45,973 nt of DNA from Flavobacteriales bacterium (GTDB lineage: Bacteria > Bacteroidota > Bacteroidia > Flavobacteriales_D > Parvicellaceae). The notes beneath the pieces were generated by a model. It saw only the letters and a list, made by a program, of their open reading frames with translations. It did no database searches and was not told the DNA's origin. Below, in pieces: positions 22,985 to 39,084 of the stretch (positions are counted from its first letter, which is position 1; the number at the start of each line of letters is the position of its first letter). Both the position numbers and the translations under genes were made by a program. The stretch covers positions 1 to 45,973 of the forward strand of contig JAGXIB010000001.1 in NCBI GenBank assembly GCA_024635865.1, written 5' to 3'.

Positions 22985-23497
22985 ATGTTAAAAGACAAAA
23001 TACAGACCGCTTTAAATAAACAAATTGAACTAGAAGCTTCGTCTTCTCAATTTTATTTAGCCATGGCTTCATGGTCAGAAACTTTAGGCTTAACCGGAAC
23101 TTCAAACTTTTTATACAAGCATAGTGATGAGGAACGTTTCCACATGCTAAAACTAGTGCGATTTGTGAACGAACGTGGAGGAAAATCTTTAATCCCTCAA
23201 CTAAGTCAACCACCAAAGGAATTTGATTCTCTTTCTAATATTTTCGAATTATTATTAGAGCATGAATTAAATGTTACCGACAGCATAAATAACATTGTTG
23301 ATCTGTGCCTAAATGAAAAAGACTATACAACTTACAACTTCATGCAATGGTATGTTTCTGAACAAATGGAAGAAGAAGCCCTAGCTAGAACTATTTTAGA
23401 TAAGCTACACTTAATTGGAGAAGACAAAGGTGGCCTTTATATGTTCGATAGAGATTTAGAGACGATGGCACAGAGTTTGTCTAACGAGGGTAAATAA
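22985..23497 (+). CDS. ftnA: Non-heme ferritin
   Basis: 170 aa. LNKQIELEASSSQFYLAMASW, YKHSDEERFHMLKLVRFVNERGG, FMQWYVSEQMEEEALARTILDKL. Confidence 0.95.
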   Translation: MLKDKIQTALNKQIELEASSSQFYLAMASWSETLGLTGTSNFLYKHSDEERFHMLKLVRFVNERGGKSLIPQLSQPPKEFDSLSNIFELLLEHELNVTDSINNIVDLCLNEKDYTTYNFMQWYVSEQMEEEALARTILDKLHLIGEDKGGLYMFDRDLETMAQSLSNEGK

Positions 23498-23504
23498 AAC
23501 GGCT

Positions 23505-23861
23505 ATTATTTTAAGGAAATTAATTCTCATATTATCTCTGCTTTTCATTGGAGGAATTATCAATAGTTCCTACAGTCAATATCGCGACCCTACATCTAAG
23601 AAAAAAAAAGAAAAGAAAAGGTCTAAGAAAAGGTCTTTATTTAAGAAAAAACGAAAGAAATTAAAAGCTGGCGGAAACCCTTTTAGTAGTAGAAAACAAA
23701 AGTCACATAGAACTGATATAAACTTAAGTCCTTTTGCTACAAAGTCTAGAAAAAAACACCAAAGAAAAGTTAACAAACGAAAAAAGAAGCAACGGCAAAT
23801 TAGCGACAAAAAAAGAGCACAAAAAAAGGCAGTCAGAAAAACATTTGGAAAAAACAAATAG
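23505..23861 (+). CDS. Lys/Arg-rich putative secreted protein with no ATG/GTG/TTG start (ATT at 23505 or 23508 is the best in-frame candidate)
   Basis: Open frame to TAG at 23859-23861: ..IILRKLILILSLLFIGGIINSSYSQYRDPTSKKKKEKKRSKKRSLFKKKRKKLKAGGNPFSSRKQKSHRTDINLSPFATKSRKKHQRKVNKRKKKQRQISDKKRAQKKAVRKTFGKNK. Typical signal peptide ending YSQ. Not in the ORF track. Confidence 0.6.
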   Translation: MILRKLILILSLLFIGGIINSSYSQYRDPTSKKKKEKKRSKKRSLFKKKRKKLKAGGNPFSSRKQKSHRTDINLSPFATKSRKKHQRKVNKRKKKQRQISDKKRAQKKAVRKTFGKNK

Positions 23862-23965: not shown

Positions 23966-24490
23966 GTGAAATTAAGCTTAACCATATTTATTCTAATAGT
24001 ATTCAGTTTATCAACTGTTTATAGTCAAAGTGGTGCATCAAAAGCAAACAATAAAATTAAAGGAATTTATGTTTATCAATTTGCTAAGAATGTAGATTGG
24101 CCTCAAAAATATAAGTCTGGAGAGTTTAGCATTGGTATACTAGGAGACAAGTCGTTTTATGATCAATTAAAACAATCCTACACTGGAAAACTAATAGGTG
24201 GTCAAAAAATAGAAGTAATATTTTACAGCTCTACCTCTGAAGTTAAAAGTCCACACTTACTTTACATTTCTCCTTATGATAAGAAAATTGCAATTGAATT
24301 AGCAAAAAAACTAAAAAAAGACAAAACCTTGATTATAGGAGAAGAGAAAGGACTACTGGAAGACGGTATAATTATTAATTTTTTGTCAAGAGACAGTAAA
24401 CTAGCTTTTGAAATCAGTAAGTCAAATGCCCAAAAAAAAGAACTAATAATTAGTCAAACTTTAACACGCTTAGCAGTTGATGTTCTATAA
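23966..24490 (+). CDS. YfiR-like (DUF4154) periplasmic protein, GTG start
   Basis: 174 aa. Signal peptide (..STVYSQ), KGIYVYQFAKNVDWPQKYKSGEFSIGILGD...GGQKIEVIFYSS...HLLYIS...TLIIGEEKGLLEDGIIINFLSRDSKLAFEISKSNAQKKELIISQTLTRLA. Confidence 0.8.
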   Translation: MKLSLTIFILIVFSLSTVYSQSGASKANNKIKGIYVYQFAKNVDWPQKYKSGEFSIGILGDKSFYDQLKQSYTGKLIGGQKIEVIFYSSTSEVKSPHLLYISPYDKKIAIELAKKLKKDKTLIIGEEKGLLEDGIIINFLSRDSKLAFEISKSNAQKKELIISQTLTRLAVDVL

Positions 24491-24491
24491 A

Positions 24492-25418
24492 ATGATAGCA
24501 AAAATCTACATATCGTTTTTAATAACTGTTTTAGTCAGCTTCTATAGTTATGGCCAGGATTACAATAAATATTGTTTATACACTGACTATGCTGTAAAGG
24601 CTTATGAAAAGGGGAAATACGAGCAAGCTATTTCTTTGATGGACTCTGCTATTAACCAATGTAAAGAACAAAACAATGATGCTGCGAACTGGTATAATTT
24701 AGCTTTCTTTTATAAAGCCCTTTACAAACAAGACAGCAAACTTTCTACAAGAGAAAAAATGCTCTCGACCATATTACATGCCCAAAAGCTGGATGATAAA
24801 AATGAGCTAAACAGACAAATAACTTCCTATTTAAAAAGTATAGCTAACTATTATAAAAATGATGGAATAAAAATACTTGATGATACCTCTTCTAATTTTT
24901 CAGGAGCAATTGAAAAATATGAAAAATATAAATCAATAATTCGTTTAATTGATTCCTCAATAGATTTTAAAAATGAAGACATTATCTATTACAATAACCT
25001 TGCATACCGAAATAATATAAAATTTGAAAATGATAAAAAGAACTACATGAATCATGCAGACTCTGCAATTTTATATTATCAAAAATCTTTATTAGTTGAC
25101 TCTAATCAAGCACACATAAATGAGGACATTGGAAGGATCTATTTTAATCAAGCTGTTGACATTATAAACAACCTAGACCCTGAAGCAGATTTTGAAGTCG
25201 CGATGAATGCTGACCAAAAAAAGGCAGATTTAGCAATGAAAGGTCTTCCTTACTTTAAAAAAGCTTTCGAACTAGACCCTAGCAATAGCGAAATCATCTA
25301 TGCATTAGCAGGATGCTACGACATATTGAACTTTAAAGATGAAAGTGAATTTTATCTTAGCATGCTTAAGGAAAAAGACCCTCAATACATTAACAAACTT
25401 AATTCAGGAACTAATTAA
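24492..25418 (+). CDS. Secreted TPR protein
   Basis: The track ORF begins at 24477 but ATG 24492, directly after the YfiR stop, gives a clean signal peptide MIAKIYISFLITVLVSFYSYGQ; TPR-like helices (AYEKGKYEQAISLMDSAINQC; GLPYFKKAFELDPSNSEIIYALAGCYDIL). Confidence 0.8.
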   Translation: MIAKIYISFLITVLVSFYSYGQDYNKYCLYTDYAVKAYEKGKYEQAISLMDSAINQCKEQNNDAANWYNLAFFYKALYKQDSKLSTREKMLSTILHAQKLDDKNELNRQITSYLKSIANYYKNDGIKILDDTSSNFSGAIEKYEKYKSIIRLIDSSIDFKNEDIIYYNNLAYRNNIKFENDKKNYMNHADSAILYYQKSLLVDSNQAHINEDIGRIYFNQAVDIINNLDPEADFEVAMNADQKKADLAMKGLPYFKKAFELDPSNSEIIYALAGCYDILNFKDESEFYLSMLKEKDPQYINKLNSGTN

Positions 25419-27247
25419 TGAAGTTTACTGTAGGTAGGAAAATCGGTTTAGGGTTCTTGACCATAGGACTTTTCTTAATTGTTACTTTTGGAATTACGTT
25501 ATCAGTTTTAAACGGAGCTGAAAAAACACTTAAAACCAGCATTAATAATAACAAGGAGTATACAGAGGTAGGTCAACCAACTGTAGATGAGTTAATAGAT
25601 TTAAAATTCAACCTTAGTAATAGTCTAAAATACATTCAGCACATTACTTATCAAGAAACAAAATCTGACGCAATCGAAAGAACCAATCTTGATAAAATAT
25701 TAAACGAATCTATTCCAAAAAATTTAACTCATTTAAATCAATTACAAGTTGAATGGTCAAGTAAAAAAAATAAAAAAAATCGAGAGTTATTAAACAAGCT
25801 AACAAAACAAATACAGCAAACAACTTCAAAATACTACGAAAAAATAGGTAATGTTTTAAAAGGATTTGGATATTATGATGGCTTTGAGGTCTTTGAAGCT
25901 ACAACAAATTATGAATTAGAAATAGAGCCCAGTTTACAGTTAATAATTCAAGATGTTGAGCGTTTACTCTCTATAAAGAATGAAGATTTAGCTATTCAGA
26001 AAGAACAAGGTTCTGCTTCGTTTGAAGAAACTAACCACAAGTTCACTCTTTTGTTTTGGGGAATGTTAATAGCTGGATTACTATTGTTAATTGGAACAAT
26101 AATCATTGCAACTTTTACCGCACTCAGCATTACTAAACCTGTTCAAGAATTAAAAAAGTTTTTAATTTCTCTAGGAAAAGGAGTTATTCCTGAAGCACAC
26201 ATAAAGCCTAGTAATGATGAGATAGGAGAGATGGCAGTAGCCATGAATAAACTAGTAGACGGCTTAGAACAAACTACCACTTTTGCAAATGAAGTAGGAA
26301 AAAGTAACTTTAACTACCCGTATCAACCGTTAAGTGAACACGATACTTTAGGACATGCTTTATTAGTCATGAAAGACGAACTAGCAGAAAGTGAAAGAGT
26401 ACTAGAGCAAAAAGTTGTTGAGAGAACTCAAGAAGTTGTTAGGCAAAAAGAAGAAATAGAGCATCAAAGTGAAAAAATGGAGGAGCTCTATACTGACATT
26501 ACTGCTAGTATTCGTTATGCAAAACGATTACAAGACTCTATTTTACCTCAACAACAATATATAAAATCATTACTCCCTGAATCTTTTGTGTTATTTAAAC
26601 CTAAAGACATTGTAAGTGGTGATTTTTACTGGTTTCAAGACACTCCAACTAAAGTTTTATTTTCTGCTGTGGACTGCACTGGACATGGAGTTCCTGGAGC
26701 TTTCATGAGTTTAATTGGAGCAAATGCCTTGTCTAGAATAGTCGTTGAAAACGGAGTTGAAAAGCCTTCAATTATACTTGACGAATTAAACCGTTTATCT
26801 TCCTCTGCTCTTAATAAATCAACAGGAGGAAATGAAGTGCGAGACGGAATGGATGCAGCAATATGTTCTTTTGATAAATCCACGAATAAATTAGAATATG
26901 CTGGAGCAAACAACCCACTATATTTGATTAGAAATAATGAAATCATTCAAATAAAAGCTGATAAATTTGCCATCGCTAGTTTTAATCCTGATTCAGAAAA
27001 TTATACTAATCATGAAATACAAATAGAGAAAGGAGATGTTGTTTACCTTTTCTCAGATGGATATGCAGATCAGTTTGGAGGTGAACGCGGAAAGAAATTT
27101 ATGTATCGTAAATTTAGAGAACTCTTACTAGAGATAAAAGATAAGCCTATAATTGAGCAAAAAAGTATCTTAAACTCAACGATAGAGAACTGGCGAGGCA
27201 TTCACGAACAGGTGGATGACATCTTAATTATAGGCGTTAAGTTTTAA
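25418..27247 (+). CDS. Membrane sensor HAMP-SpoIIE (PP2C-type) serine phosphatase
   Basis: 609 aa. Two TM segments flank a ~185 aa extracytoplasmic domain; HAMP (TALSITKPVQELKKFLISLGKG..EIGEMAVAMNKL), coiled coil, then PP2C/SpoIIE motifs (FKPKDIVSGDFYWF, AVDCTGHGVPGAFMSLIG, DGMDAAICSFD, YAGANNPLYLI, VYLFSDGYADQFGG). Start overlaps the upstream stop (TAATG). Confidence 0.92.
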   Translation: MKFTVGRKIGLGFLTIGLFLIVTFGITLSVLNGAEKTLKTSINNNKEYTEVGQPTVDELIDLKFNLSNSLKYIQHITYQETKSDAIERTNLDKILNESIPKNLTHLNQLQVEWSSKKNKKNRELLNKLTKQIQQTTSKYYEKIGNVLKGFGYYDGFEVFEATTNYELEIEPSLQLIIQDVERLLSIKNEDLAIQKEQGSASFEETNHKFTLLFWGMLIAGLLLLIGTIIIATFTALSITKPVQELKKFLISLGKGVIPEAHIKPSNDEIGEMAVAMNKLVDGLEQTTTFANEVGKSNFNYPYQPLSEHDTLGHALLVMKDELAESERVLEQKVVERTQEVVRQKEEIEHQSEKMEELYTDITASIRYAKRLQDSILPQQQYIKSLLPESFVLFKPKDIVSGDFYWFQDTPTKVLFSAVDCTGHGVPGAFMSLIGANALSRIVVENGVEKPSIILDELNRLSSSALNKSTGGNEVRDGMDAAICSFDKSTNKLEYAGANNPLYLIRNNEIIQIKADKFAIASFNPDSENYTNHEIQIEKGDVVYLFSDGYADQFGGERGKKFMYRKFRELLLEIKDKPIIEQKSILNSTIENWRGIHEQVDDILIIGVKF

Positions 27248-27541: not shown

Positions 27542-30220
27542 CTACTCTCCTTGATTATCTCTAAACAAATGAAAGAATCCTTTTAATTCGACAGGGTCAA
27601 TTCCAGATAAGCGAATGGTATTCACTGTACAGACGTAATAATAAACACTACTAGGCACAGGCTCTCCAGAGTCTTGGTGTATGCCATCCCAATTGATGGC
27701 CGGGTCGGTTGTTTGATAGACTATTTGCCCCCATCGATTATAAATAGACAAATCTATACTCTCTATGTATTTGAAAGGAGTTAAAGGAGTGAAATACTCA
27801 TTCTTCCCATCATTATTAGGAGTGAAAACATTGGGTAAAAAATAAATGGGACAGTTATCAAAACAAACAACATTGCTAGAGTCACTTTCATTATTGTACA
27901 ATACAGAATCTAAGGCTGTAATAACATAGCAACCGGCTACAGAACCATTATTAGTGTGATAAAAAACGGTGTCCAACTCTGAATCTATTGTAGCTATCAA
28001 TTCCATAGAATCTCCTTCTACTGGCGTGTAGTATATATTGTATCGAGTTACATCATCAGCACAATCATTATTTGGGTTATTCCAAAACAACCTATTTTCT
28101 CCTATTTGGCAATCTCCTTCAATATTCAAAACAGGAGGGCATGGAGGCGTTTTATCAACAGGAGAGTCACAAACTTCTTGAGATAAATTTTCTATTGGAC
28201 TAATGATAGAAGGTGAAGAGTAGTAACCTATACTTTTAACGTAATAACAATAAGTTTGACCATTAACCAGACCAGTATCTGTATAAAACTGATTATTAGT
28301 TGTCCCTATTTGGGTATAAGCACCTCCGATATTAGTTCCTCTATAAACAACATAAGCTGTATCTATCCACGGAACATCCTCTGACCAATTTAACGTTATT
28401 TGGTTATCATTTGGCACTGTTGTTAAAAAAACGGAACCAGCTTTATTAGATGAGCCAACTAGGCTATCAGCTCCATTATTAGTATAAAAAAGTTCTACCC
28501 TATAAAAGTTAGGATTACTTACCGTGTTAACGTTCACATGTGTGAAAATTGTATCTGCATTAAACAGTAGCAACGATGAATTTGTTTGACCAATTAATGT
28601 TCCAATGTTATTAATAGAAGTTCCGTGATATACTTTATAAAAATATGGTCCTGGAAAAATCACAGTATCGAGTTCCGTTGGCTTAGACCAAATAATAGAG
28701 TCGACCCCAGTATTAATATCAGTATTATTGACTGTTACATGAGTCATGATGGGCACTTCTTTCTTTAACCTTGTGCACGCAGAATCAGAAGGACAGCTTT
28801 CTACTTGACCAGTGACATAAAATGCAGTGATTACATAGCAATAATCTATTCCTAGCGTTAGACTAGTGTTGTCAAAAAAAGTAGTATTGTTTACGCCAAA
28901 AACTTGTCCTACCTGAACAAAACCAACAGATTCTGGATCTGGGTTGTCGCAACAATCAGGCATTACAAAGTTGGGGTTAGTTGTTCTATAAATCCTATAG
29001 CCTTCTGCATTAGAACAAGTCGCAGGGTTCCAACTTACATTAACTCCATTTCCAAATGCAGCAGCATTAACCCCTGTTAATTTTGGAGGTATCACTCTTA
29101 TTATTGCTTGTTCGTAATCAGAAAATAAAGGATTCCCATTGTCTTGTGCAGCAAATAGAACTTGATAGGAACCAAATTTTATATGAGAACAATTAGTTGA
29201 CCAAGAAAAAGTTCCGTTTACTGGATTATTACCAAGAGTATTAAAACTTGCTGGACTAGAAGAAACAGAAAAAGGCTGTCCAGAAGCAGTTAAGTCAATT
29301 AAATCTCCATTGTTAGGATCTGTAGCATTAACATTAAATTGTATTGTCTCTCCTGCAATAACACATACAGGATCAACAGGAGTAATCACTGGTGGGTCAT
29401 TATTACAAAGATTTTGTACAGTTAGCTGAATATCTCGGTAAACATACCCCACCTGATAACCATTTCTCCACTCTGTAATTTTTAAGGTAAAATTAAACTC
29501 TCCTACTAAATGAGGACTATCCCAACACATTGTCCCTGTTGCAGGATCAACACTCATTGTACCACCACCACTATTTACCTGATTTGGAAATAAATAAACC
29601 GTTGGTGAAGGTAATGGCTCTGCATCGAGTCCTAAGGGCGCAACTAATTCATATGATAAACTATCACCATCAGGGTCAACTGCTTGAGGATTATAGCAAT
29701 ATTCTTTTCCAACACAAGCAATAGCTGGACAAGGACAATCATCAAAAACTAACGAGTTATTCGCCCCTCCCATCCCTAAAAAGGGATTAATAATCAACTT
29801 AGATTGGAGAGCAAAAACAACATTATCTGAAGTTCCCCCTCCGTTCGGATAAATATTTAAAATATTCGCATTCCGATTCGGGTCTTCAACTTCAATTAAA
29901 TAGCTGCCAGAAGTAACAAAAGTGTGTACTCCAATGTAAACATTTTTCTGATGGTCTGGAAAACCCTGAATAGAAGTTACAGGAATAACCCTTGGAATCG
30001 TATCTCCTTCCCCATCTCCATATCGAATAAAAAGCTCGGAACGATCTGCCTGAGCAGCAGCACTAATATCAGTACAAGTAGTAATAATAAAACGATAAGT
30101 TAAACCAGAAACGTGTTGATAGGTAATTTCGCCTCCTCGATTATGAGTAGCAAAAGAAATAAAAGGAATCAACCCCAGTAGAACTAATAAAATATTTCTA
30201 ATTGCTAATTTACGCATCAT
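27542..30220 (-). CDS. Large secreted protein with Fn3-like regions and a T9SS type B (gliding-motility-associated) C-terminal domain
   Basis: 892 aa. Signal peptide, Fn3-like repeats (GLVNGQTYCYYVKSIGYYSSPS), C-terminal FLPNVFTPNNDGKNEYFTPLTPFKYIESIDLSIYNRWGQIVYQT..NWDGIHQDSGEPVPSSVYYYVCTVN. Confidence 0.88.
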   Translation of the reverse strand: MMRKLAIRNILLVLLGLIPFISFATHNRGGEITYQHVSGLTYRFIITTCTDISAAAQADRSELFIRYGDGEGDTIPRVIPVTSIQGFPDHQKNVYIGVHTFVTSGSYLIEVEDPNRNANILNIYPNGGGTSDNVVFALQSKLIINPFLGMGGANNSLVFDDCPCPAIACVGKEYCYNPQAVDPDGDSLSYELVAPLGLDAEPLPSPTVYLFPNQVNSGGGTMSVDPATGTMCWDSPHLVGEFNFTLKITEWRNGYQVGYVYRDIQLTVQNLCNNDPPVITPVDPVCVIAGETIQFNVNATDPNNGDLIDLTASGQPFSVSSSPASFNTLGNNPVNGTFSWSTNCSHIKFGSYQVLFAAQDNGNPLFSDYEQAIIRVIPPKLTGVNAAAFGNGVNVSWNPATCSNAEGYRIYRTTNPNFVMPDCCDNPDPESVGFVQVGQVFGVNNTTFFDNTSLTLGIDYCYVITAFYVTGQVESCPSDSACTRLKKEVPIMTHVTVNNTDINTGVDSIIWSKPTELDTVIFPGPYFYKVYHGTSINNIGTLIGQTNSSLLLFNADTIFTHVNVNTVSNPNFYRVELFYTNNGADSLVGSSNKAGSVFLTTVPNDNQITLNWSEDVPWIDTAYVVYRGTNIGGAYTQIGTTNNQFYTDTGLVNGQTYCYYVKSIGYYSSPSIISPIENLSQEVCDSPVDKTPPCPPVLNIEGDCQIGENRLFWNNPNNDCADDVTRYNIYYTPVEGDSMELIATIDSELDTVFYHTNNGSVAGCYVITALDSVLYNNESDSSNVVCFDNCPIYFLPNVFTPNNDGKNEYFTPLTPFKYIESIDLSIYNRWGQIVYQTTDPAINWDGIHQDSGEPVPSSVYYYVCTVNTIRLSGIDPVELKGFFHLFRDNQGE

Positions 30221-30995: not shown

Positions 30996-31484
30996 ATGAA
31001 GTTATTATTACCTATTTTTATTGTTTTTACAAGTTTAGTTTCATTTTCTCAGTTAAAAGGAGAAACAGAAAAAACAATTACAACCGGGGAAACTTTGTAT
31101 TTAAAATATATAGACGCCTCTATCACACCTCCTGCTGGATATGTTTTTATGGAGGAGTTTTCTTCATTTTTAGATCAAAAAACACAAACCTCCATTAGTG
31201 TCGTAAAAGACGATAAAATGCCTTATCAAGCATTTATTGACAACATGCTAAAAAAAGACTATACCATTGGTAATGCTGAATTACTTTCGCATGATAAATT
31301 AGAAAAAGGATATTTATTTACTTTCCTATTTACAATTAATAATGCTCCAGTTGAAAGAATTGTTTATGTAACAGGAACTGAAGAGTTTTGTATTTGGGCA
31401 TCTGCTAACTACAGACAATCAGAAAAAGAAAAATACTTAAACATTCTAAAAGAAAGTCTGCTCTCTATTAAATATAAATTATGA
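30996..31484 (+). CDS. Small secreted hypothetical protein, first gene of the SprB-type adhesin operon
   Basis: 162 aa. Signal peptide MKLLLPIFIVFTSLVSFSQ; stop overlaps the start of the next gene (ATGA). Confidence 0.75.
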   Translation: MKLLLPIFIVFTSLVSFSQLKGETEKTITTGETLYLKYIDASITPPAGYVFMEEFSSFLDQKTQTSISVVKDDKMPYQAFIDNMLKKDYTIGNAELLSHDKLEKGYLFTFLFTINNAPVERIVYVTGTEEFCIWASANYRQSEKEKYLNILKESLLSIKYKL

Positions 31485-34400
31485 AAAAGCTTATCTCCTT
31501 GAGTTTTTTGCTTTTTTCATTTTTCTTAAGTGTTAAAGCTCAATTAACAACATCTAGTCAGCCTGCTAACTTCAGTACTGCTAACCAAGGAATGTTTGGA
31601 CCTAACAGTACTTTTAACCTTAATTTTGAGGTGCCTATTTTTAATGTCCCATGGAATCAAACATTTGCAGATAGTTCTATCAGTTCAACTTTTGTAGGGG
31701 ATTATGGTTTTGCTATCTCTGGAGGTACTAGTGGTCACTTTGGAGCTAAATTCTACTCTAGAAATTGGTCTACTGGAGACATAAGCGTAAACTATCCAGT
31801 AAATATAAATTTAAGATACCCTTCTAATAACACTTTTGAACGGGGAGAAACCATAACTATTAGATCAGATTATACCGTTGACCCTTCTGCTCAACTTAAC
31901 ACGACTTTTCCACAAGCTGGAAATATAGGTCTTGAACTTGACTTTAGTCTTCGATTTTATTTAACCCCAATTTTATGTTTTGTAAGCTGTGGACAAGTCG
32001 GTGCTTTTGATACAGGAAATCTTTCCACTACTTTAACTATTTTTGACATATCAGCCAATCAATTTACCTACGCTTGTGTTTCCCCATCTTTAACTTGCAC
32101 CCAAGCTTTATTACCTGCTACAATTAATGCTCCTTATGGTTTGTCTGGCACATTTGACTTGCCAGATGTTCAAACCACCTCTTCAATTGGGTCAGACCAA
32201 TGCTTATATGCCTCAGGAGAAGATCAATATGCAAGTGTTCAACTAGAGTTATTTAAACTAATTGGAGGCCTTAATATTCCATACATCAGTCCAGTTTTAA
32301 ACAATCTTTCTGGAGGTGGCTGTGCTAGAGCAATTGGATCAACTTACAACATCTGCTTTAACTACACGTTATTTACCGCTTTTTTTGAAATGAATGTTCT
32401 AAATAAACAGGACTTTTCATTTTGCCCAGAAGTTTATACTTCTCTAACCTTTCCAGTTCCTGTTCAATACACGATAACTGATCCTAATGCTGGAAATTCA
32501 GTTGTCGAAGGACCAGCTCAGAGTGACTCAATAACTTTCAAAGTAGGAAACAACATCAACTTTACCTACCCTTGTAATTATGAATACATGGATATTGATC
32601 CAATACACGACATCACTAACACAATTACGAACCATACATACGATGAGTTATCATTTAATTTTACAATGGAGGCTTTTGCGGTTTCTCTTCGTTTAGACGG
32701 TTTCGGACCAGGAGAGAACAATGAAGATTCTAATGCAGTAGATTCACAGACTTGGTCTTATGGACCTTTATTTCAAAATACGATTCCTTTAGGAACTCTT
32801 CCTGCTATGGAATGGTTTAATGATTCTTGGGAACTACCAGGGTTTGATAGTATTATAGGGACTACTTTTCGTCTTATACCTAACCAATACTTAGCAAATA
32901 CTGGGGCTACATCAAATGTGGATTGTAAAGGAGAAAACAATGGTTCGTTTACTGTTAATGTAACTAATGGTTCAGCACCATACACTTATAATTGGAGTGA
33001 CGGAACCTCTAATACCTCTTCAGCTACTTCTCAAACAAATAGTAATTTTGAAGCCGGAAACCAACATGTTGTAATTGAAGATGCTAATGGCTGTATGGCA
33101 TACGCTAGTTATAATATTACTGAACCTTATGAAACTGTTCAAGTTGGATCAAGTTCTATAAAAGGAGTGAGTTGTAATGGAAATAGTAATGGTCAAATAT
33201 CCATTGCTGTATTTGGAGGAACTGCTCCATACTCTTATAACTGGAGTTCAGGTTCAGGAAGCAATACCATTAACAATATTGGTGGAGGAAATCAAAGTGT
33301 AACAATTACTGACAGTAGAGGTTGTTCAATTACTGAGAACTTTGAAGTTCCTGAACCTTTGGAACTAACAGCCACTTTCGAAGTACAAGATGTTAACTGC
33401 TTTGGAGGATCTGACGGGATAGTTGAAATATTACCAGTTGGAGGAACCGCTCCTTATTCTTATAGTTGGTCTAATGGGGCGACAACAAAAATCACAAATG
33501 ATTGGAGTGCAGGAACTCATTCAGTAACAATCTCTGATATAAAAGGGTGTAGTAATTCTGTAAGCTTTACAGTTGGACAACCTAACTCAGCCATAAGTAC
33601 TACGGGGTCAATTTCTAATGTTAATTGTTTTAATGGGAGTGACGGATCCATAAGTGCATCAACCACAGGCGGAACTGCTCCATATTCCTATCAATGGGCT
33701 GATGGTAATTTTAATGCTAATGAAAGCTATTCCAGTCAAGCTAATAACTTATATGCTAATGACTGGAATGCAATAGTAACGGACGCTAACGGCTGTATCG
33801 AAACGACGGTATTTACAGTAACACAGCCAAACTCCGAATTATTAGTAGCTATTTCACCCTCTAATGTTTCTTGTAGAAATGGAAATGACGGATTAATAGA
33901 CCTCACTGTCACAGGAGGAACACCTAGTTACTCATATAACTGGAGCAATGGTCAGTCTTCTCAAGACGCTACCAACCTTATTGCAGGTTCTTATTCTTTG
34001 AATGTAACTGATGGAAATGGATGTAGTTTTGACTCCATCATAGAAATAACTCAACCTACCAACATTCTTGAAGCTAGAATAAAAAAGAAAAATGTAACTT
34101 GTTTTGGAGATGATAATGGAGAAGCAGAAATTATTCATACAGGAGGAAACTCTCCATACAACTACTCTTGGACAACAGGAGAAACTAGCTCATTAATAAA
34201 CCAATTAGACGGAGGTAATTATACTGGAACATTAACAGACGGTAACGGATGTATTATCAATCTCCCCTTTACAATTATTGAAGCACAAGGGCCTTTAACC
34301 ATAGCAGGAACTATAGCAAACATAGACTGTAAAGGAAATAACAATGGAGTTATAAATACAACCATTACGGGAGGAACACAACCCTACAAATATGAATGGC

Positions 34401-35968
34401 ACGATTTCTATTATGCTCATTTATACAACAACGCTCCTACTATCTCTAATCTAAGCCCTGACACCTATACTTTAGTTGTAACTGATACAAATGGATGTTC
34501 AACAGAAACTCCTTTTACCATTACAGAGCCAGTATTACCACTATCATTGACTGACACCTTAAAAAATGTTTCTTGCAGGTTTGGCTCTGATGCTTTTATA
34601 GCTCTTTCTACCTTCGGAGGTACGGCTCCATATTCTTTTAATTGGAGTAATGGGCAAACAACAGAAGATCTTAATGCTATCCCCGTGGGAGTTTATACAC
34701 TTACAATAACTGATTTTAATGGGTGTTCATTAACAAAAACATATACTATTACTCAACCAGAATCTATTTTGAGAATAATTGGCTTTGAACAACTAAATGT
34801 AAAGTGTAAAAATGGAGTCGATGGCTTTGCTAAAGTAGTCATTTATGGAGGAACCCCTGAATATGATTACTCTTGGTCGAATGGAGCAACAACTGACACT
34901 AATTATAACCTAATGGCTGGCAGCTATCAAGTGGTCATTACCGATAGTAACCAATGTTCTATTGACACTACGTTTACGATAACTGAACCAGACTTATTAT
35001 TAATTTCAAGTATTATTGATAGTGTTTCTTGTTATAGCTATTCTGATGGAAGAATTTCTTCAACAGTTGTAGGAGGAACAACTCCCTACAGAATTGCATT
35101 TGGAGATTCTACAGCTTCCATGTTGTCTACAGCAAACAGTTTGATTGCAGATAGTTTAATTGCTGGACAATATTATATTTCTGTTTTAGACACTAACGGA
35201 TGTCAATTTACTCAAGCGGTAGAAGTTTTCCAACCAGACACCTTAATTTGGCAAATCAACTCCTATCCTGTCTCTTGCTATAAAGGATCTGATGGAAATA
35301 GCAACCTTACAGTTACAGGAGGAACCTTACCCTACCAATATTTATGGTCAGACAGTAGCACAAATGAAGACTTAATTAATGGGCCTGCCGGAAATTATAT
35401 TGTAACTATTTCTGATAGAAACAATTGCACAGTAATTGGAACTTCGATTATTACTGAACCTGACTCTATTTCATTAACAAGTAAAATAAATGGAACAACC
35501 TGTATTGATAACAACGATGGTAGCATTGAAATATTTTTAAGAGGTGGTGTTGGGGACTATAGCTACTTATGGTCTAATGAAGAAATTACTCAAAACATTT
35601 ATAACTTAACTGGTGGAGAGTACTACCTTCAACTACAAGATCAAAATGGATGTACTCGAATCGACACCTTTTTTATCAACACTTCATCAATAGATTGTAT
35701 CGATCCTCCAAATGCTTTTACTCCAGATGGTGATGGCTATAATGACACTTGGGTACTTGAAAATATTCAAAACTATGAAGGAGCTACCATACAAATATTT
35801 AATAAATGGGGTACATTAATCTTTGAAAGCGACAATAATTATGAACCTTGGGATGGAACTTACCAAGGAAACATTTTACCTTCTGCTACCTATTACTATG
35901 TGATCGATTTAAATAAAGATTCACCTCCATATACTGGTCCACTTACTATAGTAAAGAAAAATAAATAA
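31481..35968 (+). CDS. SprB-repeat T9SS type B cell-surface adhesin
   Basis: 1495 aa. Signal peptide, about 470 aa unique N-terminal region, 12 SprB-type repeats (e.g. NVNCFGGSDGIVEILPVGGTAPYSYSWSNG), C-terminal PPNAFTPDGDGYNDTWVLENIQNYEGATIQIFNKWG..PWDGTYQGNILPSATYYYVIDL. Confidence 0.93.
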   Translation: MKKLISLSFLLFSFFLSVKAQLTTSSQPANFSTANQGMFGPNSTFNLNFEVPIFNVPWNQTFADSSISSTFVGDYGFAISGGTSGHFGAKFYSRNWSTGDISVNYPVNINLRYPSNNTFERGETITIRSDYTVDPSAQLNTTFPQAGNIGLELDFSLRFYLTPILCFVSCGQVGAFDTGNLSTTLTIFDISANQFTYACVSPSLTCTQALLPATINAPYGLSGTFDLPDVQTTSSIGSDQCLYASGEDQYASVQLELFKLIGGLNIPYISPVLNNLSGGGCARAIGSTYNICFNYTLFTAFFEMNVLNKQDFSFCPEVYTSLTFPVPVQYTITDPNAGNSVVEGPAQSDSITFKVGNNINFTYPCNYEYMDIDPIHDITNTITNHTYDELSFNFTMEAFAVSLRLDGFGPGENNEDSNAVDSQTWSYGPLFQNTIPLGTLPAMEWFNDSWELPGFDSIIGTTFRLIPNQYLANTGATSNVDCKGENNGSFTVNVTNGSAPYTYNWSDGTSNTSSATSQTNSNFEAGNQHVVIEDANGCMAYASYNITEPYETVQVGSSSIKGVSCNGNSNGQISIAVFGGTAPYSYNWSSGSGSNTINNIGGGNQSVTITDSRGCSITENFEVPEPLELTATFEVQDVNCFGGSDGIVEILPVGGTAPYSYSWSNGATTKITNDWSAGTHSVTISDIKGCSNSVSFTVGQPNSAISTTGSISNVNCFNGSDGSISASTTGGTAPYSYQWADGNFNANESYSSQANNLYANDWNAIVTDANGCIETTVFTVTQPNSELLVAISPSNVSCRNGNDGLIDLTVTGGTPSYSYNWSNGQSSQDATNLIAGSYSLNVTDGNGCSFDSIIEITQPTNILEARIKKKNVTCFGDDNGEAEIIHTGGNSPYNYSWTTGETSSLINQLDGGNYTGTLTDGNGCIINLPFTIIEAQGPLTIAGTIANIDCKGNNNGVINTTITGGTQPYKYEWHDFYYAHLYNNAPTISNLSPDTYTLVVTDTNGCSTETPFTITEPVLPLSLTDTLKNVSCRFGSDAFIALSTFGGTAPYSFNWSNGQTTEDLNAIPVGVYTLTITDFNGCSLTKTYTITQPESILRIIGFEQLNVKCKNGVDGFAKVVIYGGTPEYDYSWSNGATTDTNYNLMAGSYQVVITDSNQCSIDTTFTITEPDLLLISSIIDSVSCYSYSDGRISSTVVGGTTPYRIAFGDSTASMLSTANSLIADSLIAGQYYISVLDTNGCQFTQAVEVFQPDTLIWQINSYPVSCYKGSDGNSNLTVTGGTLPYQYLWSDSSTNEDLINGPAGNYIVTISDRNNCTVIGTSIITEPDSISLTSKINGTTCIDNNDGSIEIFLRGGVGDYSYLWSNEEITQNIYNLTGGEYYLQLQDQNGCTRIDTFFINTSSIDCIDPPNAFTPDGDGYNDTWVLENIQNYEGATIQIFNKWGTLIFESDNNYEPWDGTYQGNILPSATYYYVIDLNKDSPPYTGPLTIVKKNK
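32912..35690 (+). repeat. Array of 12 SprB-type protein repeats (~75-80 aa)
   Basis: Recurring C.g..DG.i...v.GGT.PYsY.WsnG...........G.Y.v.vtD.nGC. Confidence 0.9.
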
Positions 35969-38900
35969 TGAAGTTTTATTTACTAATCATATCATTTTTT
36001 GCATTAATATTCTATGGCTATTCGTGTCCAACTATTAATATTTCTAGTACAGATGTTAATTGCTATTTAGGAACTAGCGGATCGGCTTCTGCAACTATTA
36101 ACGGACCAGATGCTCCTTTTACCGCAACTTGGTCTACTGGGCAAAGCACTACAGTAGCTAACGGAGGTTCTACCTCAATTTCTAATTTACCAGCAGGAGT
36201 TTACACACTATATGTTGTAGATCAACTAGGGTGTACCTCTACTCATGTTGTCTCTGTCGAGGAACCTTCACCTGTAACTGGAGTAATTAGTAACACTTTT
36301 GATGTTAACTGTAATGGAGGATCTGATGGAAGTGTAGATTTGACTCCTTTAGGGGGAACTCCTTCTTATTCTTTTAACTGGAGTAGTGGTTCTGCAAGTG
36401 AAGACCCAAATAACCTTTCTGCTGGAAGCTACAGTGTAACAATAACGGATGCGAATGGCTGTACATCAAATTCAATCTCAGCATTAATTGGAGAACCAGC
36501 AACGCCCCTTACCTCAACTATAGTTGGCCTAGACGCTAAATGCTTTGGAGAAAATAGCGGAGGAGTTGACTTATCGCCATCTGGAGGAACTTCACCTTAT
36601 ACTTTTAGCTGGAACAATGGAGCCTCAAGCGAAGACCTTAACAACGTTACTGCTGGAAGCTATAGTGTAACAATCACAGATAATAACAACTGTACTACAT
36701 CAAATAACATATCATTATCAGAACCAACAGCAATCCAAACCACATTATCAAAAGTAGATGTCCTCTGTTTTGGAGGATCTGATGGAGACATTAACCTCTC
36801 TATAACGGGAGGAACCCCAACATATACTTTTAAATGGGCAAACTCAAGTTCAATACTTGTAGGGACATCAGAAGACTTGACAAACTATCCGTCTAGCACC
36901 TACTTTGTTACTGTAACTGATGCTAATGGTTGTGAACAGTTAGACAACATCACGATTAATGAACCTCCACAATTGACAACCTTTTTAATCCCTACTAACA
37001 TTAAGTGCTTTGGGGATAATACTGGAGCAGTTCAAAACAATGTGTCTGGAGGAACTCCACCTTACTCGTTCAACTGGAACAATGGTGCAAGCTCTCAAAA
37101 CTTAATTAACCAACCGGCTGGAAGTTATGGAGTAACAATTACAGATTCACATGGCTGCAGCGTTTCAGATAATGTTATTCTAACCCAACCTGACGCTCCT
37201 TTAGCTACTAGTTTTGCATTAACAAATGTTACTTGTTTTGGGTTTTCTGATGGCTTAATAGATTATAATGTTACAGGAGGAACAACTCCATATAACTTTG
37301 ATTGGAACAATGGTCAATTCATTACTGAAGATTTAGATTACATTCCTGCTGGATTATATAATGTACTAGTCACTGATGAGAACAACTGTACCATTACAAA
37401 CAGCATTACAATAACTGAACCTCCAGCTTTAGTTTCATCTACTGTAGCGACAAATGTTTTATGCTTTGCAGATACCAATGGAGCAATAGATTTAACAGTA
37501 AATGGAGGAACTTTACCCTATTTATATCAATGGGGAAATACCAGTTCAGTTTTAATTGATACAAATCAAGATTTAAACAATTATCCAGCAAACACTTATT
37601 ATGTTAAAATTATAGATAGCCTAGGATGTGTTTTATTTGATGAAGATTCAATTACTCAACCAGACGAATTAATATCAGATCTAATCCCTACAAATATTTT
37701 ATGTTTTGGAGACACAACAGGAGCAATAGCAACAACTATCACGGGAGGAGTCACCCCCTATGTTTTTGATTGGAACTATGGGCAATACACCACTGAAGAT
37801 TTAACAAACTTGCCTTATGGTGGTTACGGGTTAGTTTTAACAGACGCCAACGGTTGTCTTCTTACTGACTCTATTTATTTGGAACAACCAAACGAACCGT
37901 TATATGCCTTCTATGACATTATAGAGCCATCTTGTTTTGGTTATGATGATGGGCAAGTTTCTTACACCTTAGAAGGGGGAACTTTTCCTTATGATTACTT
38001 ATGGAGCAGAGGAGATACAGTATTAACACTTTTTGATGTTCTTTCAGATACACTTATTTGTACAACAACAGACGATCATAATTGTATCTTAATTGACACC
38101 GTTATTGTAGCTCAACCTGACCAATTAAAAATAGACGTATCAGTAACTGACGTTACTTGCTTTGAGTTATCAGATGGCATAATAGATATATCAGTCTCTG
38201 GAGGAACAATCGGTTATGATTATTCTTGGACAAACACTAGCTTTGAATTAAGTGTCAATACAGAAGATTTAATAAATTACCCTTCAGATGAATACATCGT
38301 TCAAGTAGTAGACTCTAATGCTTGTGAAGCTTTTAGCACAATCAATCTTCCTCAACCTCCATTATTAGAGGGAGAACTAGACATACAAGACATTACTTGT
38401 TATGGGAAAAATGACGGAAGAATTGAAGCTATAATAACTGGGGGAAATACCGGCGCCTATTTTTATCCTTGGAATAATGGAGATACAACTCAAATTATAG
38501 AAGAACTTCCGGCGGGAATATATGATGCTGTTGTTTATGATACGAAAGGTTGTGAAGTCTATGTTAGAGGTGTTGTAAAAGAACCTGAACCAATTGTAAT
38601 TAATTATGAATTGTTCCCACAAAGCTGTAGAGACCTCTCAGACGCTGCAATAGAAACAGAAACAATAGGTGGTAATGGAGGGTATACTTTTGAGTGGGAT
38701 TACGAACGCTTAACAGAACCTAACATTTATGAATTGTTCAGCGGAAGCTATACATTAACAGTAACTGACATGGTAAACTGTATCGAAGACACAACCATCA
38801 TCGTACCAGTAAATGAACAGCCTTGTATCATTCCTCCAACAGCATTTACTCCTGAAGGGGATGGCTATAACGATATTTGGTTTTTAGAGAACATAGAATT

Positions 38901-39084
38901 ATATCCTGAATGTGAAGTGTTAATATATAATAAGTGGGGTAGAATTATGTTTGAGTCTTCTGGCTATTCTTCTCCTTGGGACGGAACTTTTAACGGGAAG
39001 CCGTTACCAGCATCAACCTATTATTACTCCATAAAAATAAACGAAGATGCTATATACACAGGACCTATTACTATTGTAAGATAA
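35968..39084 (+). CDS. SprB-repeat T9SS type B cell-surface adhesin (second copy)
   Basis: 1038 aa. Signal peptide followed almost immediately by 12 SprB-type repeats, C-terminal [58 protein letters not shown]. Start overlaps the upstream stop (TAATG). Confidence 0.93.
   Translation: [1038 protein letters not shown]
36043..38780 (+). repeat. Array of 12 SprB-type protein repeats
   Basis: e.g. [62 protein letters not shown]. Confidence 0.9.

Follow-up and report, generated by a model that had tools for sequence, protein, structure and literature searches.

A conserved operon for a YfiR-like protein, a TPR protein and a HAMP-SpoIIE phosphatase in Flavobacteriales: a putative envelope-to-phosphatase relay

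Overview

The stretch of DNA analysed here (45,973 nucleotides in full, hereafter the window) lies on contig C48 of an uncultured Flavobacteriales genome (3.1 Mb, 232 contigs, 91% complete) and carries three consecutive genes for a secreted YfiR-like protein of the DUF4154 family, a secreted tetratricopeptide repeat (TPR) protein, and a transmembrane phosphatase with HAMP and SpoIIE/PP2C domains (Table 1). This trio is an operon inherited as a unit across the order, not by chance. We propose that it encodes one transmembrane relay from envelope to phosphatase, the output of which would be a switch protein of the SiaC or STAS type, and assign this reading a probability of roughly 0.6. The parts, their topology, their motifs, and their co-inheritance were observed directly or predicted computationally. 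The three co-directional open reading frames (ORFs), spanning 23966-27247 with a 1-nt gap followed by a TAATG overlap of the TPR stop codon and the phosphatase start codon, are as described in an earlier model-made reading of the window (the original prediction). That reading's domain calls (YfiR-like/DUF4154, TPR, and HAMP-SpoIIE/PP2C) were matched by hidden Markov model searches for all three proteins, and hydropathy agrees with its placement of the first two outside the cytoplasm and of the third in the membrane.

Co-Inheritance and Family Relationships

Profile searches detected DUF4154 in 43 of 60 relatives of the window genome, with the order DUF4154-TPR-HAMP/SpoIIE on one strand in nearly all stretches around these hits. 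The TPR profile matched at E<1e-80 in 41 of the 60, all of which have DUF4154, and the 17 genomes that lack it gave no such match; the profile of the receptor's N-terminal part likewise tracks the trio, apart from a few matches, partial or more distant, where DUF4154 is missing. The survey was extended to 355 genomes of the order at least 80% complete (TPR threshold E<=1e-25), among which DUF4154 was found in 159, the TPR protein in 135, and both in 133 (Fisher p-value 8.5e-68, which is descriptive only as it ignores shared ancestry), the two TPR-only genomes being contig-end cases or partial matches. Among the DUF4154 matches listed, the TPR gene lies directly downstream of a DUF4154 gene in 123/135, with a median gap of 19 nt between profile matches; most of the other 12 belong to lineages with a divergent DUF4154 outside that list (e.g., G700 and G735), and the stretches fetched there show the trio. 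The two gene junctions range from -19 to +4 nt and from -1 to +82 nt (39-40 loci). Named records with the trio, among the matches listed, comprise uncultured Flavobacteriales, Crocinitomicaceae, Salibacteraceae, and 'Bacteroidetes' metagenome-assembled genomes. The joint conservation on which the original prediction had staked its proposal recurs through the order. The trio's YfiR-like gene is the one DUF4154 gene of the window genome. In some genomes of family f9 the TPR gene is tandemly duplicated inside the operon (L310, L311, and hits in G686, G687, and G691).

DUF4154 is rarer in the rest of the phylum (42/393 genomes). Outside the trio clade its usual partner, encoded by the next gene or in the same chain, is a sensor histidine kinase, which has a CHASE8 sensor in the examples scanned, and these genes or fusions often stand behind a TonB-dependent receptor gene (L066, L100, L162, L167-L168, L174-L176, L178, and L182, with further such loci at L184-L188, L193-L195, and L197). 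Loci of this kind likely encode a relay from outer membrane through periplasm to kinase. In a tree of 101 DUF4154 domains, 55 of the 56 trio members fall into one clade (support 99/95), the exception being a long branch. Outside that clade stands a single 566-aa protein (G045; L109 2926-4626) composed of a signal peptide, DUF4154, a coiled coil, a transmembrane (TM) segment, and SpoIIE, the gene for which overlaps, and is translationally coupled to, a preceding gene for a 688-aa TPR-TM-SpoIIE protein. As this fusion groups with a DUF4154-TM-histidine-kinase fusion (support 98/88), DUF4154 and SpoIIE were joined here a second time, independently, and the fusion lends further support to the earlier suggestion that a YfiR-like protein has a phosphatase as its output rather than a cyclase. 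Sister to the trio clade (support 91/70) is a YfiR-like protein at L177. The receptor encoded after it shares the four-helix-HAMP part of the trio receptor (hhalign E 2e-38), but its cytoplasmic part is GAF-PAS; genes for an HtrA-type protease and HSP20 lie upstream, and no TPR gene is found among the flanking genes scanned. This branch of YfiR-like proteins thus pairs with the sensor-HAMP half of the receptor even when the output differs.

It is very improbable, given these patterns, that the trio consists merely of co-transcribed or syntenic neighbours with unrelated functions. The ferritin gene next to it does illustrate that synteny can persist here with no obvious functional link, but the three genes are present or absent together and have stop and start codons that overlap, and these features, the DUF4154-SpoIIE fusion, and the re-use of the same receptor N-terminus beside the sister YfiR-like gene all argue for a functional unit.

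The Phosphatase Receptor

Two TM segments flank the sensor of this inner-membrane receptor, as originally predicted, although the extracytoplasmic domain is about 172 aa long by hydropathy rather than the ~185 aa first given. In the AlphaFold model (mean pLDDT, predicted local distance difference test, 83.6) this domain is a four-helix bundle running on into both TM helices. Foldseek retrieved NarQ, Tar, and other chemoreceptor four-helix ligand-binding domains; the E-values are weak (7.5e-4 at best, for NarQ), and these matches to the predicted structure are taken as an indication of fold type, not of homology. The HAMP match (22.3 bits at 1.6e-4) falls slightly below its cutoff of 25; its placement after TM2 is correct and conserved in orthologues, and residues P241, D267, E268, and G270 are invariant in 25 of them. 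The SpoIIE domain matches Pfam at 1e-19, the conserved phosphatase stretch beginning upstream of that match (SGD at 400-402); all conserved SpoIIE acidic motifs are present, and D402, D419, D547, D551, D600, and D601 are invariant in the 25 orthologues. The best NCBIfam model is SiaA (234 bits, residues 306-609), whose equivalog cutoff of 700 bits is not reached, and the best sequence match in PDB (3.2e-60) is 6k4e, the PP2C domain of SiaA (PMC7647112).

A receptor of the CHASE8 type was considered and rejected: CHASE8 gives no match in the window receptor, whereas E. coli YfiN gives 1.3e-33, and hhalign of the window sensor profile against CHASE8 yields no alignment (probability 0.8%), in keeping with the four-helix model. 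YfiR is described by Malone et al. (2012) as repressing YfiN via the periplasmic PAS/CHASE8 domain of the latter (PMC3375315). The transfer of this YfiR-YfiN mechanism to the trio, implied by the original prediction, therefore does not find support in a receptor that lacks CHASE8/PAS and for which a four-helix sensor is predicted instead; any binding of the YfiR-like protein to the receptor would have to take another form or be mediated by the TPR protein.

The Secreted Proteins

The YfiR-like protein matches DUF4154 (PF13689) at 2.4e-30, the match on which the original prediction had made its case depend, and its score is comparable to that of E. coli YfiR (105.9 vs 108.2 bits, cutoff 24.9; E. 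coli YfiR 4.9e-31). The NCBIfam TOL_0243 YfiR-like model gives 92 bits, below its cutoff of 125. A profile search of PDB with the YfiR-like alignment returned nothing at E<0.01, so the link to the solved YfiR is drawn from Pfam and hhalign. A single N-terminal hydrophobic segment indicates a signal peptide (residues about 1-20). When residues were mapped from the window protein to E. coli YfiR and on to P. aeruginosa YfiR, the docking residues F162/E163/L183 were found to correspond to F148/E149/L169; position 148 is F or Y in 25/25 orthologues, 149 is mostly E, and 169 is L in most. L146 occupies the docking position V/I160, so that the hydrophobic docking residues V/I160, F162, and L183, described by Malone et al. 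(PMC3375315), all have hydrophobic counterparts. The two cysteine pairs of YfiR, Cys145-Cys152 (a stabilising disulfide) and Cys71-Cys110 (PMC4655355), are not kept: the window protein contains no cysteine, and its 25 orthologues contain 0-2, with other residues at the Cys145 and Cys152 positions. Redox sensing through a disulfide, as in YfiR/HmsC, was consequently rejected because the cysteines are missing.

The strength of the DUF4154 match and the conserved F148/E149/L169 could be taken to mean that the trio is a plain copy of YfiBNR, in which the YfiR-like protein represses the receptor exactly as YfiR does and is sequestered by the TPR protein as by YfiB. Such a copy is nonetheless improbable, for the receptor lacks the partner surface (CHASE8/PAS and its AAVVF motif), neither cysteine pair is kept, and the TPR protein has no lipobox and is unrelated to the OmpA-like YfiB.

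The TPR protein (TPR_19, 8.2e-8) begins with one hydrophobic segment, a signal peptide of about residues 1-21 with Q following the cleavage site; translation could also begin further upstream, at a TTG at 24477. Its AlphaFold model is an all-helical TPR solenoid (mean pLDDT 92) that matches TPR superhelices in PDB, and its profile (A2) is specific to the trio. The role of adaptor given to it in the original prediction is a guess. This protein might instead be the receptor's direct sensor partner, the YfiR-like protein only presenting a ligand to it or controlling its stability and never touching the receptor. TPR-SpoIIE coupling is an established architecture, as many SpoIIE proteins of these genomes have a periplasmic TPR of their own (e.g., the 688-aa protein at L109), and the missing CHASE8 would fit as well. 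DUF4154-TM-SpoIIE and DUF4154-TM-histidine-kinase fusions show, however, that YfiR-like domains can act without a separate TPR protein, and the four-helix receptor at L177 adjoins a YfiR-like gene, with HtrA and HSP20 rather than TPR among the flanking genes scanned; we regard this alternative as rather unlikely.

Possible Output

A partner-switching output of the phosphatase is plausible, with candidate SiaC, SiaB, and STAS proteins encoded elsewhere in the genome. The window was originally reported to hold no STAS or anti-sigma partner gene, and contig C48 indeed gives no STAS, SiaC, or HATPase_c_2 match. Profile searches of the whole window genome found seven SiaC genes, at least four of them beside SiaB-family kinases, together with two standalone STAS proteins, which score with anti-sigma antagonist models, and a single anti-sigma-like protein (HATPase_c_2). 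This genome also encodes, on contig C118 (L112 2868-6115), a protein of 362 aa that combines SiaB-kinase-like and slr1658-like parts; its gene overlaps a SiaC gene and is convergent with a SpoIIE gene. The sampled half of the streamlined genome G749 contains one other SpoIIE gene (GAF-SpoIIE) and one STAS gene, and no SiaC was found in that half.

A class III nucleotide cyclase is encoded next after the phosphatase in 18 of the loci fetched, which represent 17 distinct genomes of families f1 and f8 (Table 1). It is spaced 2-22 nt from the phosphatase in most, overlaps it by 4 nt in L204, and follows at 53-197 nt in four, and it takes the form either of a cyclase-HD protein alone (514-520 aa) or of a protein of about 1,300 aa that also has a Reg_prop/Y_Y_Y propeller outside the cytoplasm. 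In five more f8 loci a propeller gene begins 1-5 nt past the phosphatase, and the fetched stretch stops before the cyclase part. Where readable, the specificity positions of the cyclase hold Lys and Asp, which we take to mean an adenylate cyclase. No cyclase gene is present at the window locus, and none was seen in about 0.3 Mb scanned of the 3.1 Mb window genome, overlaps included. In L308 and L309 (family f9), the phosphatase gene is followed at 9 nt, or overlapped by 1 nt, by a gene for a CLC chloride channel with CBS domains.

The phosphatase might alternatively act as an RsbU-type stress switch on a STAS anti-anti-sigma protein, thereby freeing a sigma factor. The two STAS proteins and the anti-sigma-like protein of the genome are compatible with this possibility, as is the STAS gene kept in G749. 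We find it doubtful, since SiaC genes outnumber STAS genes 7 to 2 and at least four adjoin SiaB kinases, the nearest solved relative of the phosphatase is SiaA, and the gene that comes next in relatives encodes a cyclase rather than a sigma or anti-sigma factor.

Proposed Mechanism

In the proposed relay, the YfiR-like protein would bind or gate the four-helix sensor in the periplasm, either together with the TPR protein or by way of it. A ligand or a state of the envelope that alters this binding would shift the HAMP domain and coiled coil and so turn the phosphatase on or off. Envelope stress as the input signal, part of the original prediction, is a guess, and repression by the YfiR-like protein would likewise be a guess by analogy. 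The phosphatase may then counteract a SiaB-type kinase by dephosphorylating a switch protein of the SiaC or STAS type whose gene lies elsewhere, a step to which the evidence points indirectly. SiaC is known to control the diguanylate cyclase SiaD; where relatives carry the fourth gene, the adjacent class III adenylate-cyclase-like enzyme would probably also come under the control of the switch. A more specific version is put forward tentatively, as a possibility short of even odds: the secreted YfiR-like and TPR proteins might jointly gate the four-helix-HAMP PP2C, and a SiaC-type switch might set a class III adenylate cyclase, in an undescribed relay that would join a YfiR-type input to a SiaABCD-type output with cyclic AMP replacing cyclic di-GMP.

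Several points weigh against the relay as proposed. Binding, the sign of control, the input signal, and the substrate are inferred. As the YfiN docking domain and the stabilising disulfide of YfiR are missing, the mode of action of YfiR may not apply. The substrate genes lie outside the operon in a genome with about 35 SpoIIE-domain genes (36 profile matches), and the cyclase is not in the operon in the window's own genus or in most families sampled. SiaC is present in 130/135 trio genomes; the presence of SiaC was nevertheless rejected as proof of the substrate and is weak evidence for it, because 159/220 (about 72%) trio-less genomes of the order have SiaC too. Lastly, the co-inheritance counts are not phylogenetically independent.

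Neighbouring Genes

The original prediction described the trio itself correctly and missed its conserved neighbours, namely the upstream ferritin gene and, in many relatives, the downstream cyclase. The ferritin gene lies upstream on the same strand in 52 of 68 fetched DUF4154+TPR loci, even where other flanking genes have changed. With a 468-base gap it is probably a separate transcript; a link of ferritin and trio to iron or oxidative stress is possible, plain synteny being the alternative. A short Lys-rich ORF recurs between ferritin and YfiR-like gene in other genomes (L071, L077, L084, and L091), recognisable by '[SG]QYRD' and a Lys-rich tail. Five genomes of the window's genus that were checked have no in-frame ATG, GTG, or TTG for it, and an ATG is present in other genera; its start in the window's genus is likely an ATT or ATC near the same place. 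Downstream of the trio, the window encodes large proteins that carry type B sorting domains of type IX secretion (27542-30220, 31481-35968, and 35968-39084; NCBIfam).

Table 1. Features of the operon and its surroundings (window positions; residues are those of the phosphatase)
Feature	Position	Strand	Evidence and remarks
YfiR-like gene (DUF4154)	23966..24490	+	GTG start, 174 aa; ORF call and Pfam
Secreted TPR gene	24492..25418	+	ATG start, 308 aa; starts one base past the YfiR-like stop
Transmembrane HAMP-SpoIIE (PP2C) phosphatase gene	25418..27247	+	ATG start, 609 aa
TM1 (residues 4-34)	25427..25519	+	Hydropathy; begins helix 5-78 of AlphaFold model
Extracytoplasmic four-helix-bundle sensor domain, predicted (residues about 35-206)	25520..26035	+	AlphaFold model, Foldseek
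TM2 (residues 207-242)	26036..26143	+	Hydropathy
HAMP domain (residues 233-285)	26114..26272	+	Pfam, 1.1e-4 to 1.6e-4
SpoIIE/PP2C domain (residues 411-608)	26648..27241	+	Pfam; motifs SGDFYW, DCTGHGVPGAF, SDGYADQFGG, VDD
Ferritin gene	22985..23497	+	PF00210, 9.9e-38; upstream of trio
Short secreted Lys-rich ORF, candidate	23508..23861	+	118 aa if ATT at 23508 is the start
Fourth-gene cyclase loci (relatives)			L069, L070, L073, L075, L081, L088-L090, L092, L102-L106, L108, L201, L204, L304

Relation to Known Systems and Significance

The closest parallels on the input side are YfiBNR (TpbB/AwsXRO) of Pseudomonas, YfiR-DgcN-YfiB of E. coli, and HmsCDE of Yersinia, three-gene operons in which a secreted DUF4154 protein with the same docking residues is likewise encoded with a two-TM HAMP receptor (PMC3375315, PMC4655355). 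The trio differs from them in its predicted four-helix sensor in place of CHASE8/PAS, in its PP2C phosphatase (SpoIIE) output in place of GGDEF, in its TPR protein in place of the OmpA-like lipoprotein YfiB, and in the loss of the cysteines. According to Malone et al. (2012), the YfiR-YfiN core is modular, with kinase, GGDEF-EAL, HPT (histidine phosphotransfer), and MCP (methyl-accepting chemotaxis protein) outputs that all conserve the PAS/CHASE8 docking site, and many YfiNR pairs occur without YfiB (PMC3375315). The histidine-kinase output noted there (PMC3375315) corresponds to the Bacteroidota loci in which a DUF4154 gene similarly adjoins, or is fused with, a membrane signal transducer; unlike the trio, these have a kinase output, a CHASE8 sensor, an upstream TonB receptor gene, and no intervening TPR gene.

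On the output side, the trio resembles SiaABCD of Pseudomonas aeruginosa in its two-TM HAMP-PP2C phosphatase, for which SiaA provides the nearest solved domain, in the SiaB and SiaC homologues of the window genome, and in the nucleotide cyclase beside the phosphatase in some relatives. It departs from SiaABCD in that SiaB and SiaC are encoded away from the operon, the phosphatase stays below the SiaA model cutoff, and the enzyme found in some relatives is class III adenylate-cyclase-like where SiaABCD has the GGDEF enzyme SiaD. SiaA is not known to have secreted partners encoded with it. The SpoIIE/PP2C catalytic domain is shared with the partner-switching phosphatases RsbU and SpoIIE, from which the trio phosphatase is set apart by its membrane sensor with secreted partners and by the lack of STAS or anti-sigma genes on its contig.

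Neither the text of Malone et al. (2012) nor any open-access paper found mentions a phosphatase output, a four-helix sensor, or a TPR partner. No open-access paper was found that treats YfiR and SpoIIE together, and a single one names DUF4154; the YfiR-TPR-phosphatase combination thus appears previously undescribed. If the proposed relay is real, Ser/Thr phosphatases would join the cyclases, histidine kinases, and MCPs that were named in 2012 as outputs of the YfiR family, and the family would extend to another sensor fold as well, raising the sharp question of what a YfiR-like protein binds when the docking domain known for YfiR is absent. Among the numerous SpoIIE phosphatases of Bacteroidota, one would also gain a defined set of extracytoplasmic partners, and streamlined relatives with few SpoIIE genes would offer a tractable system for finding its substrate.

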